NCBI RefSeq assembly: GCF_024266705.1
Contig: NZ_CP100756.1
Location: 1-64,000 of the forward strand
Direction: 5' to 3'
DNA from: Natrinema gelatinilyticum
Lineage (GTDB): Archaea > Halobacteriota > Halobacteria > Halobacteriales > Natrialbaceae
Length of the DNA stretch: 64,000 nucleotides
Part shown: piece by piece, positions 7,932 through 50,731 of the stretch
Numbering within the stretch: position 1 is the first letter of the stretch
How the letters are laid out: every line of letters begins with the position of its first letter
Made by a program: the position numbers and the translations under genes
The notes under the pieces: generated by a model
The model's input: the letters and a program-made list of their open reading frames with translations, nothing else
Databases searched by the model: none
What the model was told of the DNA's origin: nothing

Positions 7932-8071
7932 GACGTTCGTTGCCCGACCGAACGCGGGTACTGTACGGGATCCGGCTCGCCGTCCAAAAGCCGGCCACAC
8001 TCGCGTCTCGCTGTAACTCACTGCTCGATACCGACCTGATCTTTTTGCGGATACCTCAGCGACCGACGGAC

Positions 8072-8278
8072 GTGACCGAAGGCACGTCTCGATCGGGGGC
8101 GGGGCACTCCCGACGTGGATTCCTCGCAACGGTCGCGGTCGCCGGATCGGCCGCGACGGCAGGTTGCGTCGGGTCGCTGCTCGAGACCTCCCCATCGAAC
8201 GAAATCGAAGCCGAAACGTCGAGTCAGCCGTGCAAGGGGACTCCCGGCGAATTTCACGAAGCGGACCTCGAGGACTGA
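8072..8278 (+). CDS. very small Tat-exported lipoprotein, possibly truncated
   Basis: From a GTG start the 68-residue product carries a twin-arginine signal (SRRGFLATVAVAG) followed by a lipobox-like TAGC, so it should be exported folded and lipid-anchored outside the cell. The mature part is only about 40 residues, acidic, with one further cysteine (QPCKG), and no family is recognisable. A T-rich TATA-like CTTTTTG lies about 25 nt upstream, supporting a leaderless GTG. Its TGA stop is the left edge of a dispersed palindromic element, so the gene may be complete or may have been cut short by that element. Confidence 0.6.
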   Translation: MTEGTSRSGAGHSRRGFLATVAVAGSAATAGCVGSLLETSPSNEIEAETSSQPCKGTPGEFHEADLED

Positions 8279-8360
8279 TACGGACTGCTGTAAGTCATTG
8301 CCGGTGCAACCGCGACCGCCCTGCGGTTGCACCGGTACATCGTTACAGCAGACCGTATGA
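8276..8360 (+). repeat. dispersed palindromic element, copy 1
   Basis: Core 8279-8357 (79 bp), bracketed by TGA on both sides. The ends are TACGGACTGCTGTA and TACAGCAGACCGTA, inverted repeats with one mismatch in 14. Inside, CCGGTGCAACCGC (8301-8313) and GCGGTTGCACCGG (8323-8335) are perfect inverted repeats around a 9-nt loop. The left TGA is the stop codon of the small lipoprotein gene. It lies between that gene and gltX and has no coding capacity. Confidence 0.85.
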
Positions 8361-13280: not shown

Positions 13281-13365
13281 TCATACGGTCTGCTGTAACG
13301 GTTTATCGGCGCAACCGCAGGGTGGTCGCGGTTGCACCGGAACTGACGTACACCAGTCCGTATCA
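13281..13365 (-). repeat. dispersed palindromic element, copy 2
   Basis: Core 13284-13362 (79 bp), same family as 8279-8357 and in reverse orientation. Read on the minus strand it begins TGATACGGACTGG and ends CAGACCGTATGA. The inner hairpin is GGTGCAACCGC paired with GCGGTTGCGCC. The TGA at 13363-13365 (complement) is the stop codon of tmcA, so the element starts exactly where that gene ends. It sits between convergent genes. Confidence 0.85.
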
Positions 13366-15726
13366 GTCGTCGGCGAAGCGATTTCGTACCGAACGCGCCG
13401 CATCCGTCCCGTAGTGATCGACGAGCGGGCACAACGCGTCGCCGAGTGCACGCATGCACTGCCCGGTGGAGTGGTACTCGAGTCGGTCGGCGACGGTCGA
13501 CCAGTCGCGTCCCTGAAGCACGCGGAGGACGAGCAGTCGTTCCTCGCGGTCGTTCAGGTCGACGGGATTGGGATCGGTGATGAAGTATCGGACGACGAGT
13601 CGCCTGAACGGACCGGGATCGACGTCGAACAGTCCCGGTCCGTAGGCGGCACCGGCGACGACGTGCCACTCGTGGTCGGTCAGCGTGAGGGGCGGTCCAG
13701 CGCTCGATTCGACGCTCCGGAGTACTGCTCGGGCGACGTCCGGATCAAGGTCGTCCAGCGCATCCGAACAGAGGGCGGCGAATCGGCCGGCGAACCAGTC
13801 CGCGTGGCGGTCGTGGAGCGTCCGACCCGCGTCGCTCGTGGGAGCGAGCATGAGCGCGGAGTACTCGCCACTGGCGTCGTTACGAGTAGTCGAGACGTGA
13901 ACGGTCCGGTAGCCGTTTTCGGTCCAGAACTCGAGGAGGCCGGGCGTCGCGCCGAAGCCGGTTCCGAGCCAGTCGAGTGCGTCGTCGCCGTCCTCGTCGG
14001 CGACGATGGCCTCACCCCCTGCATTGCTGAATTCCTCCTTGACGCGTTCCAGCAGGCAGGAACCCAGCCCACGCGACCGAACGGCGTGGTGGGTCGCGAT
14101 GCGGACGACGCGAATTCCCGCAGACTCGCCCGCCGCTTCGTCGCGTAACTGGCTCGTTAGCACGTCCGGAAGCATGTTGCCGCGAACGCGGCCCCCCTCG
14201 TACATCATCGATCGAGTTTCCGGGGACAGGTTTCCCTCGCGTGCCAGCAGTGCGACGCTGACCACGTGGCCATCGTAACGGAGTGCGCGGGCCTCGAGGT
14301 TCGGTGCGTCGAGCAGTCTCGCGAGGTCGTTCGGTTCCGTTCGGTAATGTGCGAGGACGAGGAGACCGAACGCCTCCCGGAGGAGAGTTTCGTCCTCGAT
14401 GAGGGCCGCCGGCTCGAGTCGACGATAGACGACGGTTTCCGGCCGAGCGTCGGTCACAAGCGCCTCGACCGGCGGTCGAGCGTCGAGGAGCAGCGCGCGG
14501 AAGGCCCACACTTCGACGGGATCACCCGCGGCGTATCGAATCGGCTCGACCAACGTGCACTCGGTTACGTCGTGACCGCTCTCTGCGAGTCGGTCCCGGA
14601 ATCGGACGGAGAATCCACGGCCGGCACCCTCGTAGCCGTGGACGGTCGTCGCGAACGCGACCCGGTCGGCGGCGAGCAGCGCTTCGAGCGTCGCAACCGG
14701 GAGCGCAGCAGCCTCATCGACCACGACGATATCGGCCGCCTCGAGTCCCGCGACGGCCGCCGTCGGTTCGAGAAATCGAACGGTTCCGCCGGTCGCGGTT
14801 TCGACCCGCCCAGGCTCGATGACTGTGGTCCTCTCGAGGCCTTCGATGCGCTCGCCGTCGCTCCCGCTTTCGTGGTCGCTGTCGTCCTCGTCGTGCTCCC
14901 TCGCGAGTGTCTCGCAGAGTTCGCCGGCACGGTCGAACAGTTCGCTCGCGTTTCCGGCGGCCGGTGCGGTCACGAGGACGTCGTTTCCGCAGGTGGCGAA
15001 CGCACCAGCCGCGAGCCCTGCCGCGCTCGATTTGCCGCGGCCGCGGTCCGCCTCGAGGACGACTGCTCGCTCGTCGTCGAACAGTCCCTCCAGCGCAGCG
15101 ACGGCTTCGGCCTGATCCGACGTGAGGCAGGCCTCGTAGGTGGCGTCCGGAAAACGGTGCTCCCGTGGAAGGCCCGGGGCGACCGTGGCAAGTCTGGGTG
15201 CGGGATCGGTCAGCCCGTTGGTCTCGAGTCGACCGCGCTCAAGGTCGACAATCGCGACACCCCGATGTGCTCTGAGGGTCTCGACGAAACGGCGTTTGAA
15301 TCGGCCGGTGACGTCGTCCAGTTCGAACGGCGGGACGGCCAGCGAGGCGTCGAACTCGGTTCGGCGATCCGGCCAGGCCTCAAGCGACGGCAGTAGTAAG
15401 ACGAGCAGCCCACCGCCGTCGACTGCGCCGACGACTTTCCCGAGCGCGTTCGGCCGAAAGTCGTCGTGGGCGTCGAGAGCGATCACCGTGCGGGTCTTCC
15501 CGAGGAGTTCGCCCGCGTGTTCCTGCGGGAGTTGCTCACAACGGAGTCGATCCTCCGTGCCGATGAGCGTCGTCTCGGTGATCGCAACGGGGAGCGATTC
15601 GAGGATCGACTGGAGAGCGTCGTATCCACGGTTGCGTGGGCCGGAAAGAACGACAATTCTGCGTTCGTTCGTTCGCGTCGCTTCCTCGTGGAGCGAGACG
15701 GCACAGTCGACGACGTCGACGTCCAT
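13363..15726 (-). CDS. tmcA: tRNA(Met) cytidine acetyltransferase TmcA
   Basis: ATP- and acetyl-CoA-dependent RNA cytidine N4-acetyltransferase of the TmcA/Kre33/NAT10 family, forming ac4C in tRNA and rRNA. The 787-residue protein has the domains in order: an N-terminal DUF1726-like region, a helicase-like ATPase with Walker A ADRGRGKSSAA near residue 225 and Walker B VVVDEAAALP near 330, a GNAT acetyltransferase region with VVRIATHHAVRSRGLGSCLL, and the C-terminal tRNA-binding domain ending near RNRFADD. Full length. Its stop codon is shared with palindromic element copy 2. Confidence 0.94.
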   Translation of the reverse strand: MDVDVVDCAVSLHEEATRTNERRIVVLSGPRNRGYDALQSILESLPVAITETTLIGTEDRLRCEQLPQEHAGELLGKTRTVIALDAHDDFRPNALGKVVGAVDGGGLLVLLLPSLEAWPDRRTEFDASLAVPPFELDDVTGRFKRRFVETLRAHRGVAIVDLERGRLETNGLTDPAPRLATVAPGLPREHRFPDATYEACLTSDQAEAVAALEGLFDDERAVVLEADRGRGKSSAAGLAAGAFATCGNDVLVTAPAAGNASELFDRAGELCETLAREHDEDDSDHESGSDGERIEGLERTTVIEPGRVETATGGTVRFLEPTAAVAGLEAADIVVVDEAAALPVATLEALLAADRVAFATTVHGYEGAGRGFSVRFRDRLAESGHDVTECTLVEPIRYAAGDPVEVWAFRALLLDARPPVEALVTDARPETVVYRRLEPAALIEDETLLREAFGLLVLAHYRTEPNDLARLLDAPNLEARALRYDGHVVSVALLAREGNLSPETRSMMYEGGRVRGNMLPDVLTSQLRDEAAGESAGIRVVRIATHHAVRSRGLGSCLLERVKEEFSNAGGEAIVADEDGDDALDWLGTGFGATPGLLEFWTENGYRTVHVSTTRNDASGEYSALMLAPTSDAGRTLHDRHADWFAGRFAALCSDALDDLDPDVARAVLRSVESSAGPPLTLTDHEWHVVAGAAYGPGLFDVDPGPFRRLVVRYFITDPNPVDLNDREERLLVLRVLQGRDWSTVADRLEYHSTGQCMRALGDALCPLVDHYGTDAARSVRNRFADD

Positions 15727-17738: not shown

Positions 17739-18735
17739 TTTTTTTGTGCTCTGTAGGATCGCTAGACGGCGTCGCCTCAATCTCGTTATCTTCGTAGAAA
17801 GCGAAGAGACGGATTACTTTGGTATCCGAATTCCGTCTCCTCACCCGAGAAATCGTTGCGAAAGCTAAAAACGTTGTCGAGAATCCGGACGAACCCGCCG
17901 ACCCCGTAGGGGGTGGCGGGTTCGCCGAATGGGCGATGCTCACGTTGCAAGCACTGCGGATCGAACTCGGGAAATCCTACCGCCAGACAATCGATCTGTT
18001 GAGCGAAATGCCCGGCATTCTCGACGAAATCGGCCTCACGCGGCTTCCGCATTTTACCGTCCTGCGTGACTGGTTTGAGACTATCTCGATGGAGACCTAT
18101 CGTGCGTTTCTCGGCGAATCAGCCGAGAAACGCACTGGCCATGCCGCGATCGACTCGACTGGTTTCGACCGCGACCAGCCCTCGCGGTACTACGCGACGC
18201 GAAAACACTACCGCGTTCGCTCGCTCAAAGTCACTGCCCTCGTGGACGTGAAAACGCTGTACGTCTACGATGTTCACTGTACGACCACGAAAAAACATGA
18301 TGCGAAGATTGGTCCGCAGGTCGCTCGGCGAAACGCCGAGGACCTGCGGTCATTGGCCGCTGACCGTGCTTACGATGGAAAGCCATTCCGAGACGATCTT
18401 CATCTTGATCGCATCCGACCGTTGATCAAACACCGGATCTACTCCTCGCTCGACCGGGCACACAACGCCCGGATGAGCAGCTGCTGGTACAATCGCCGCT
18501 GGATGGTTGAGACTGTCTTTTCGTCGATCAAGCGCACGCTCGGCTCCGCCGTGCGTGCGCGAAGCTGGCACCTCGAATTCCGCGAGATGGTGCTCAAATG
18601 TGCCGTCTACAATCTTCGTCGAACAGTTAGATATCCGTAGAATCAACCGCAGTGTATCGGTTTTCGACCGGCGGTGGCATTAGTGAAAACGCCGAAATCA
18701 AGCTTCGTCTAGCGATCCTACGAAGCATTTTTTTG
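17739..18735 (+). mobile_element. IS5-family insertion sequence with 8-bp target duplication
   Basis: Element 17747-18727 (981 bp). The terminal inverted repeats are 22 bp: left TGCTCTGTAGGATCGCTAGA(CG), right its complement with two mismatches (18706-18727). TTTTTTTG occurs directly outside both ends (17739-17746 and 18728-18735) as an 8-bp target duplication. The single transposase gene is open throughout. Intact ends, intact gene and a perfect duplication suggest a recent insertion, into the gap between ndk and the HTH gene at 19148. Confidence 0.88.
17819..18640 (+). CDS. IS5-family transposase
   Basis: DDE transposase of 273 residues from a TTG start. The three catalytic regions are present: AAIDSTGFDR (first D, near residue 116), LAADRAYDG (second D, near 179), and RWMVETVFSSIKRTLG (E, near 228) with the IS5 Y-R-E-type spacing. 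The N-terminal part holds LPHFTVLRDWF. The start is uncertain: no ATG is available upstream within the element, and ATT at 17813 is an alternative to TTG. The gene fills most of the insertion sequence. Confidence 0.88.
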   Translation: MVSEFRLLTREIVAKAKNVVENPDEPADPVGGGGFAEWAMLTLQALRIELGKSYRQTIDLLSEMPGILDEIGLTRLPHFTVLRDWFETISMETYRAFLGESAEKRTGHAAIDSTGFDRDQPSRYYATRKHYRVRSLKVTALVDVKTLYVYDVHCTTTKKHDAKIGPQVARRNAEDLRSLAADRAYDGKPFRDDLHLDRIRPLIKHRIYSSLDRAHNARMSSCWYNRRWMVETVFSSIKRTLGSAVRARSWHLEFREMVLKCAVYNLRRTVRYP

Positions 18736-31369: not shown

Positions 31370-31455
31370 TGATACGGACTACTGTACGTCCTGACCGGTG
31401 CAACCGCAGGACGGTCGCGGTTGCACCAGTACATCGGTACAAGCAGACCGTATGA
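31370..31455 (+). repeat. dispersed palindromic element, copy 3
   Basis: Core 31373-31452 (80 bp), bracketed by TGA both sides. The ends TACGGACTACTGTA and TACAAGCAGACCGTA (one inserted A) match the family. The inner stem GGTGCAACCGC/GCGGTTGCACC is intact. The central 9 bases between the stems read AGGACGGTC, the reverse complement of the GACCGTCCT-like centre of the other copies read in the same orientation. No gene ends at its left TGA. It precedes the Tat protease gene. Confidence 0.85.
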
Positions 31456-46814: not shown

Positions 46815-46899
46815 TCATTCGGTCTGCGATACCGATGTGCCGGCGTACCCACAGGACGGTCGGGGTTGCTCCAGAACTGACGGACGGCAGTCCGTATCA
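46815..46899 (-). repeat. dispersed palindromic element, copy 4
   Basis: Core 46818-46896 (79 bp), on the minus strand beginning TGATACGGACTGC and ending CAGACCGAATGA. The outer repeats are less perfect than in other copies. The inner stem is altered to GGAGCAACCCC against GTGGGTACGCC, shared with copy 5 at 50654. The TGA at 46897-46899 (complement) is the stop codon of the Yip1-like gene. Confidence 0.82.
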
Positions 46900-47551
46900 G
46901 AGAAGGCCGACGAGCCGTATGAGAAACGCGATTGTGACAGGGATGCCCACGGTAAGCATCACGTTACGGCGGGAAATGTCGTGTAGTTGTTCCATTGCAA
47001 CGGTCCAGATGGCACCACTCCATACTAACAGAACCAATCCCAGGATACCGCTACCGAGGAGTATCGGATCGTTTTGTAACTCCCGGAAGGCGTCCTGTGC
47101 GGCTTGCGTCGATTTCGGGAGTGACACGCCAGAGAACACGTAGTATGCGGCGATCGCCCCGCTGAACTTCTCGACGAGCAGCGGAATGAATCCCCACCCG
47201 GTGAACGAGAAGGTATGCTTGATCGACCCGGTCCCGCCGAATGCGAAGCGCGCGATGAGATAGAATACGACGCTGTACAGTATCCACGCCAGTAATACGA
47301 CACCGAATGCGATGGCGATCCCGAAGAATGCCGAGACCGAACCGATCGTCTCAGCGGTTGATTCGTTTAATTGTTCGCCTTGGGCTTGAGCGGAATCAGA
47401 CACGAATTGGCCCGTCAGTTCAGCACCCGGGATCGCACCGACTCCTGCGACGATGGCTGTTAGAACGACGATAAGCAGCGGAATGAGGATTCCGGGGGTT
47501 ACTGACACGTCGACGAAAAAACTCGCTCGGATTAGTGAGTATTCCTACCAT
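46897..47551 (-). CDS. Yip1-domain membrane protein with a probable frameshift at its start
   Basis: The open frame 46897-47508 (203 residues from a GTG) has about five membrane spans, including PGILIPLLIVVLTAIVAGVG, GIAIAFGVVLLAWILYSVVFYLIA and FTGWGFIPLLVEK, as in archaeal Yip1-like proteins. Just upstream, the alternate frame starts MVGILTNPSEFF at 47551, a natural N-terminus for this family. Removing one base from the six-A run 47516-47521 joins MVGILTNPSEFF to VDVSVTPGI in frame. Either a genuine frameshift or a sequencing error is possible; the GTG start would otherwise lose the family N-terminus. Confidence 0.7.
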
Positions 47552-50653: not shown

Positions 50654-50731
50654 TACGGACTGCTGTACTCAGTTCCGGAGCACCCGCGACCGTCCTGTGG
50701 GTACGCCGGCACATCGGTACAGCAGACCGTA
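50654..50731 (+). repeat. dispersed palindromic element, copy 5
   Basis: Core 78 bp. The outer repeats are intact: TACGGACTGCTGTA and TACAGCAGACCGTA. The inner stem has the GTGGGTACGCCGG variant also seen in copy 4. Unlike the other four copies, no TGA brackets it (TTA on the left, CAT on the right). It lies 53 bp after a universal stress gene stop. Confidence 0.82.

Follow-up and report, generated by a model that had tools for sequence, protein, structure and literature searches.

Analysis of the first 64,000 nucleotides of contig NZ_CP100756.1 of the haloarchaeon Natrinema gelatinilyticum (the whole stretch is referred to below as the window) led to the recognition of what is very probably a mobile DNA element of 79 bp, non-coding and with inverted-repeat ends, which duplicates 3 bp, nearly always TGA/TCA, centred in a palindromic target and whose transposase is likely provided in trans. 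This hairpin element is a genuine mobile, MITE-like element that is widespread in haloarchaea. Five copies in the window had been picked out by an initial annotation from the sequence alone, and all five were recovered at the positions given there, with the outer repeats and the inner stem that had been described for them. Copy 1 (79 bp, 8279-8357, plus strand) has its arms at 8279-8292 and 8344-8357 and an inner stem formed by 8301-8313 with 8323-8335. It stands between two TGA triplets (8276-8278 and 8358-8360, plus strand), the left of which is also the stop of a predicted gene from the list of open reading frames, a 112-aa ORF with a TTG start (7940-8278, plus strand), so that this stop is the insertion target of the copy. 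Copy 2 (79 bp, 13284-13362, minus strand) lies between TCA at 13281-13283 and TCA at 13363-13365, and the latter triplet is the stop of a called gene of 787 aa (13363-15726, minus strand). The same arrangement is found for copy 4 (79 bp, 46818-46896, minus strand), flanked by TCA at 46815-46817 and 46897-46899, where the stop of a called gene of 203 aa (46897-47508, minus strand) provides one copy of the duplicated triplet. Copy 3 (80 bp, 31373-31452, plus strand) is intergenic, between TGA at 31370-31372 and TGA at 31453-31455, with no called gene end. The diverged copy 5 (78 bp, 50654-50731, plus strand) has unmatched flanks, TTA and CAT, its 3-bp duplication being either lost or never present. 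Three of the five window copies (8279, 13284 and 46818) therefore directly adjoin a stop codon, either of a called gene or of an ORF. Neither the 3-bp flanking repeats nor the exact abutment on stop codons had been mentioned in the initial annotation.

The five copies belong to a large family. Searching the genome of N. gelatinilyticum itself (G000; 5.44 Mb, in three contigs) with a covariance model built from them gave 148 rows over the two strands, and a profile re-search of the loci followed by removal of double-strand duplicates left at least 112 distinct copies, a lower bound because 150 of the 1532 first-look candidates were scored. The expectation that five copies in the window announced many more in the genome was thus borne out. 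The 14-bp arm, allowing at most one mismatch, occurs 83 and 78 times on the two strands of this genome, compared with 2 and 0 occurrences of a reversed-pattern control. The unit starts with TACGG and ends with CCGTA, and measures 79 bp in 103 of the 112 copies; when all genomes are taken together, 138 of the 216 full-length copies have 79 nt and 54 have 80 nt. Its terminal inverted repeats of 14 bp are imperfect (usual left arm TACGGACTRCTGTA; right arm, read from its own end, TACGGTCTGCTGTA), and these ends, like the small size, the lack of coding capacity and the high copy number, are those of a MITE. The imperfection is itself conserved: an A-A mismatch at arm position 6 is retained in 97 of the 112 copies, and a mismatch at outer-stem position 6 or 7 is present in 87 of 98 diverse copies. 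Inside the arms lies the inner stem of 13 bp, and the DNA fold of one copy has an energy of −31.1 kcal/mol, 8 s.d. below that of shuffled sequences. Identical copies occur in the genome in groups of 2, 2, 2 and 3. No match to the element above the Rfam gathering score was found in the window, where a tRNA was the sole match. Two longer variants, of 112 bp (L077:247-358) and 136 bp (L149:7742-7877), share these arms and are likewise bounded by matching triplets. One locus of the N. gelatinilyticum genome (C1:1479318-1481735) holds three copies in 2.4 kb, all of them adjoining the stops of called genes, and one of them, at 1479899, is shortened to 71 bp.

Mobility was deduced from two observations, the flanks of the copies and the state of the corresponding sites in relatives. 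An identical triplet stands on both sides of 88 of the 112 copies (TCA 55, TGA 32 and TAA 1, in element orientation), and the proportion is similar in other genomes, with identical triplets around 76 of 94 full-length copies (TCA 47, TGA 28, TTA 1). The 24 copies of the N. gelatinilyticum genome that do not have a TGA, TCA or TAA duplication may be the result of decay or truncation; one of these, with a damaged end, has GAC on both flanks. The closest relative by gene identity (G018) was compared at 14 copy sites, of which nine aligned, none of them holding an element, and a single TGA/TCA was found at five. For 1461567 and 1509922 the alignment runs through the site from both sides, the two flanks sharing exactly one triplet. 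For 8279, 13284 and 46818 the alignment of the right flank reaches a single triplet, and some 8-15 bases on its left also match by eye (about 14 at 8279, where the right flank matches in full); beyond these the two sequences diverge, in the case of 8279 through an indel several hundred bases long. Four sites were empty but not clean, with one flank only aligned up to the site at 1479899 and 1481657 and diverged gaps at 50654 and 1451542, and five of the 14 gave no useful alignment (two discordant, three none). A scan for both arms in 240 kb of this relative returned no element. Inspection by eye of the relatives shown, the closest included, found site 1481657 empty in nine and window site 13284 empty in seven. 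Because the flanking triplets match and the sites of relatives are empty with a single triplet, the element is an insertion with a 3-bp duplication, mobile and MITE-like. Mobility was what the initial annotation had expected empty sites to reveal, and of the three identities that it had offered, a MITE, a REP-like element or the structured 3′ end of transcripts, the first is the one upheld, by the terminal inverted repeats, by the duplication with its empty sites and by a copy number that is patchy among close relatives. At the stop codon orthologous to that at C1:1479899, diverged elements were seen by eye in two other species (L258 in G008 and L261 in G019) and other relatives, the closest included, are empty, which reflects either one site used repeatedly or an old insertion followed by losses. 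Tandem copies exactly 3 bp apart, with one triplet in common, occurred as two pairs in each of two of the three locus sets and, further, among coordinates in high-copy genomes; examples are G064:C1:917556-917718, 1151276-1151438 and 710912-711074, L097:2019-2181 and L081:5808-5970. They look as if the new copy had used the flanking triplet of the older one.

The distribution of the family extends well beyond the genus. Matches were present in 24 of 28 same-genus genomes and absent from four, and six genomes gave at least 73 rows, both strands counted. In the order-wide search, 48 of 146 sampled genomes matched at E 0.001, in nine numbered family groups, some of which contributed one or two weak matches only. 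The named matches, among those listed, belong mostly to Natrialbaceae, and also to Halorientalis, Halorhabdus, Halomicrobium and a Halococcaceae MAG. Two genomes (G064 and G182) contain groups of seven and five copies with equal scores, an equality of score rather than of compared letters. A pattern search for the arm with TSA in front and an unusual next base gave matches in 21 of 61 family genomes and none for the control, and reading of 30 loci, with 24 copies measured, showed that these were more subfamilies of the same size. Phage records contained no match to one element copy. Viral contigs gave 22 pattern matches, none with a paired arm, which were taken as chance, and two pattern matches in bacterial MAGs (L111 and L122) turned out to contain no element.

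The search for the mobiliser was centred on transposase genes with the ends of the element. There are 84 DDE_Tnp_1 matches in the N. gelatinilyticum genome; 48 loci were inspected, and element ends were found at none of 30 (up to five mismatches per arm) and none of 18 (up to three). The boundaries of these loci, where workable, mostly showed duplications of 5-10 bp, and several loci had no clear boundary. One ORF of the window (17819-18640) holds a DDE_Tnp_1 match (C1:18137-18616) and belongs to a multi-copy group in which 8-bp duplications were seen at four of the other members. A transposase element at two loci (L347, C2 near 194 kb; L351, C1 near 1570 kb) has a 3-bp duplication, TAT, and was set aside since its ends, TCGGTACTTCCCGA, are unrelated. 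PF13586 genes were absent from the N. gelatinilyticum genome and PF13359 genes from 41 genomes. In the part of the transposase families that was covered (the 48 DDE_Tnp_1 loci, PF13586 and PF13359), then, no transposase shares the ends of the element. Among the genes that recur next to copies there was no mobiliser-like one, the 14 largest groups looking by eye like ordinary host families. A search of the genome for arms followed by an unusual base gave four matches, all of them ordinary copies, and no long version was seen among the 30 loci read in the TSA-arm search. Seven of these 30 at first had no regular partner and were later recognised as diverged or truncated copies, one pair 268 bp long and two solitary arms, with no transposase-like ORF noticed by eye near any of the seven. 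The pair is formed by a perfect arm behind TGA/TCA (L386, from 1504) and an arm with one mismatch that ends 268 bp on; the solitary arms (L391 and L392, both from 1504) are perfect, also stand behind TGA/TCA and have no partner within 1.5 kb. The long arm pairs in the examined loci proved to be neighbouring copies or the 112- and 136-bp variants.

The interior of the element shows a covariation that has to be accounted for. In a structural alignment of 98 copies, from 121 chosen for diversity, 90.1% of the cells are paired, and the value falls to 22-41% when the partners are slid by 1-3 columns; the numbers of the column-shuffle control, which ignores relatedness, are not probabilities. Changes on both sides were seen in 11 of the 13 inner pairs, pair 27/55 appearing as CG, UA, AU and GC. 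The inner stem differs strongly across the family (for example, stems on CCGCCGATCGCC versus CCGGTGCAACCGC), whereas the size and the ends are constant. Complementarity within a copy exceeded that of mixed halves in the subfamilies found by pattern (11.83 versus 9.01 of 13, n = 24) and in the set from other genomes (11.22 versus 10.04, n = 94), and was 11.51 versus 11.38 in the N. gelatinilyticum genome, where the copies are alike (n = 98). Departures from pairing in the inner stem are G-U in 52 cases and A-C in 64; in the outer stem A-C (59, of which 27 at one position) outnumber G-U (26). No fixed strand of the element is thus favoured as RNA, a weak test given that copies lie both ways relative to genes. 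Further, mean pairing of the 13 positions declines with the number of arm mutations, from 11.84 with none (n = 49) to 11.36 with one, 11.25 with two and 10.77 with three or more (n = 13). The covariation fits both a role of folded DNA in movement and the correction of the palindrome by template switching.

Template switching across an inverted repeat during replication can flip the loop and correct the arms. We give an even chance to the reading in which the element is an ordinary MITE whose inner palindrome is kept by this mutational correction alone, with no role in movement. The loop is indeed present in both orientations (GACCGTCCT-like in 58 of the 112 copies, AGGACGGTC-like in 29 and unclassified in 25), as expected from template switching across the stem, and the lack of strand bias agrees with it. 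However, this leaves unexplained why the length is nearly fixed and why varied stems keep the same architecture, and copies with decayed ends pair less well instead of being corrected, although the difference is small. A more tentative reading is that the folded strand, as a hairpin or cruciform, is itself recognised by the mobilising enzyme, so that the element would be a mobile unit defined by its structure and not a MITE with an irrelevant interior. It would account for the tightly held length, for the subfamilies whose inner stems differ and remain complementary, for the outer-stem mismatch that persists at position 6 or 7, for the drop in pairing as the ends decay and for the near equality of G-U and A-C in the inner stem, with no single RNA strand favoured. 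Against it, three identical copies of the N. gelatinilyticum genome (1213096, 1982916 and 3419835) have multiplied despite a mismatch in the inner stem, a 3-bp duplication agrees with the action of a conventional transposase, the stem would stay complementary under template switching as well, and the shuffle control for the covariation does not consider relatedness.

The location of the copies relative to stop codons, a check that the initial annotation had advised, revealed a strong preference. A gene caller trained on loci of the same genome places 56 of the 112 copies, and 49 of the 88 with a duplication, exactly against a called stop. Called genes contain no copy, and the single overlap is with a weak call, in agreement with the earlier remark that the element lies only between genes. 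The share at stops may be an underestimate, since the caller misses some genes, probably among them ORF 7940-8278, whose absence from the calls leaves copy 1 outside the 49 counted sites. TGA/TCA triplets of the same sequences occur 165 times at stops, 2146 times at other extragenic places and 6089 times inside genes, so that stops represent 165 of 2311 extragenic triplets (7%), whereas of the 87 copies flanked by TGA/TCA 48 are at called stops and 39 away from them (odds ratio 15.7, p 1.6e-29). The same caller placed 45 of 77, 15 of 23 and 11 of 30 copies at stops in sets from other genomes, each above its own background of 8-10%; in the named-genome set several loci come from the same genome and are not independent throughout.

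The explanation resides to a large extent in the sequence of the target. Insertion sites resemble the near-palindrome CGACT(G/C)AGTCG, whose centre falls on the second base of the duplicated triplet; when all are turned so as to show TGA, they read CGAC, TGA, usually a purine, a C/G-rich third base and G, alike at stop sites and at other sites. Over the eight flanking positions, palindrome matches average 4.49 at non-stop sites versus 2.02 in background intergenic sites (p 3.5e-18), and 4.62 at stop sites versus 2.87 at background TGA stops (p 2.5e-10). GAC precedes TGA at 23 of the 48 stop sites and at 15 of the 39 others, compared with 22 of 169 and 56 of 2160 in the respective backgrounds. 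Much of the stop-codon habit therefore arises because gene ends such as GAC-TGA are half of the target. A weight matrix derived from the 39 non-stop sites places 39% of extragenic insertions at stops, compared with 7% unweighted and 55% observed; the predicted share would be too high if stops had been overlooked among these 39 sites, as may be the case for some, and an extra factor (missed genes, selection or targeting) may account for the excess of the observed value over that predicted from the motif. At stop sites of this genome, 34 of 48 copies have one orientation relative to the gene and 14 the other (binomial p 0.0055), the numbers at non-stop sites being 21 and 18.

A strong hairpin located directly after stop codons could also be selected at the RNA level, as a terminator or a stabiliser of the mRNA 3′ end. 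The RNA fold of one copy (−51.6 kcal/mol, z −8.1 versus shuffles) and the predominance of one orientation at stop sites, as a strand-specific effect would give, speak for such a role. We consider it improbable, because the 39 copies away from called stops share the same target motif, because the duplication and the patchy copy number indicate mobility and, as a weaker argument given that copies lie both ways relative to genes, because departures from pairing in the inner stem are A-C as often as G-U. The suggestion that the element represents structured transcript 3′ ends finds no support as the main reason for its presence, since it is mobile, is found in both orientations and lies off called stops in those 39 copies. 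Even less probable is that the excess at stops comes wholly from selection removing other insertions: selection against insertions in genes is likely, as no copy lies inside a called gene, but selection alone predicts 93% of the copies at extragenic TGA/TCA outside stops, where 39 of 88 (44%) were observed, and non-stop sites carry the motif as well.

A mobile element with a target motif thus remains the preferred reading, and the following sequence of events is proposed. A transposase supplied in trans likely moves the element, and its insertion duplicates a triplet, nearly always TGA/TCA, at the centre of a target close to CGACT(G/C)AGTCG. As many genes end in GAC-TGA, which is half of this target, stop codons are favoured sites. 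The duplication preserves the stop of the gene, so that insertions at gene ends are likely harmless and persist, and insertions in the interior of genes are likely purged by selection, as their absence suggests. The inner stem would be kept complementary in the DNA itself, whether through a part played by the folded form (hairpin or cruciform) in movement or through copying errors across the palindrome that correct one arm to the other. It is possible, though rather doubtful, that the family represents a structure-encoded class of mobile DNA whose substrate is the hairpin or cruciform fold rather than the sequence; a haloarchaeal transposition enzyme would then read nothing beyond the terminal arms and the fold, and would have become specialised for a palindrome contained in acidic gene ends (GAC-TGA), with stops as a safe haven.

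Comparison with known systems places the element close to MITEs, which are also short, non-coding and of high copy number, with terminal inverted repeats, target duplication and no transposase of their own. It differs from them in that no related full-length element was found in the tested part of the transposase families, in its interior, a co-varying hairpin of nearly fixed length, and in the duplicated triplet, TGA/TCA, which is often a stop codon. The ERIC, RUP and Correia elements of bacteria are likewise small, largely palindromic, intergenic, MITE-like and of high copy number, and they duplicate TA, in contrast to the TGA/TCA duplicated here within an 11-bp palindromic target. REP/REPIN sequences with their RAYT are likewise repeated extragenic hairpin DNA, but a single 79-bp unit with a 3-bp target duplication does not look REP-like. 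Integron attC sites also act as folded DNA with conserved outer arms, a variable complementary inner stem and a conserved asymmetry; the likeness is one of architecture only, as the present element has no cassette, has a 3-bp target duplication and occurs mostly as dispersed copies. The nearest described class, compared by description, is that of the SMRs of Haloquadratum walsbyi. As far as that account describes them, SMR-A and SMR-B are of about 80-110 bp, with prominent inverted terminal repeats unmatched to known transposons; they are reported without target duplication and insert into PATEs and other mobile elements, SMR-A with a strong preference for PATE/IS605 palindromes (PMC3119063). 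The haloarchaeal setting, the similar size and the inverted terminal repeats are common to both, whereas the present element duplicates 3 bp, as the empty sites of the closest relative show, and favours a target near CGACT(S)AGTCG, with about half of its copies at called gene stops. PATEs (palindrome-associated transposable elements) are palindromic, mostly non-coding and haloarchaeal as well, and according to the same account they have neither inverted terminal repeats nor target duplication (PMC3119063), in contrast to the terminal inverted repeats and the 3-bp duplication found here. Neither the element nor a MITE that duplicates a stop codon is described in the literature searched, consistent with the initial view of an undescribed family. 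As far as that literature shows, the element is new in its target, a palindrome that contains a stop triplet, and it is unusual in having a co-varying interior of nearly fixed length.

These results explain a common intergenic repeat that might be mistaken for a terminator or for a non-coding RNA. The very high copy number in some genomes makes the mobiliser gene findable, and the co-varying inner stem permits a clean test of the role of folded DNA in movement. The results also show that the target duplication of a mobile element can be the stop codon itself, so that the element lands on the end of a gene and leaves the gene unbroken. That genes offer such ends, GAC-TGA, plausibly follows from the abundance of acidic residues in the proteins of salt-loving archaea.
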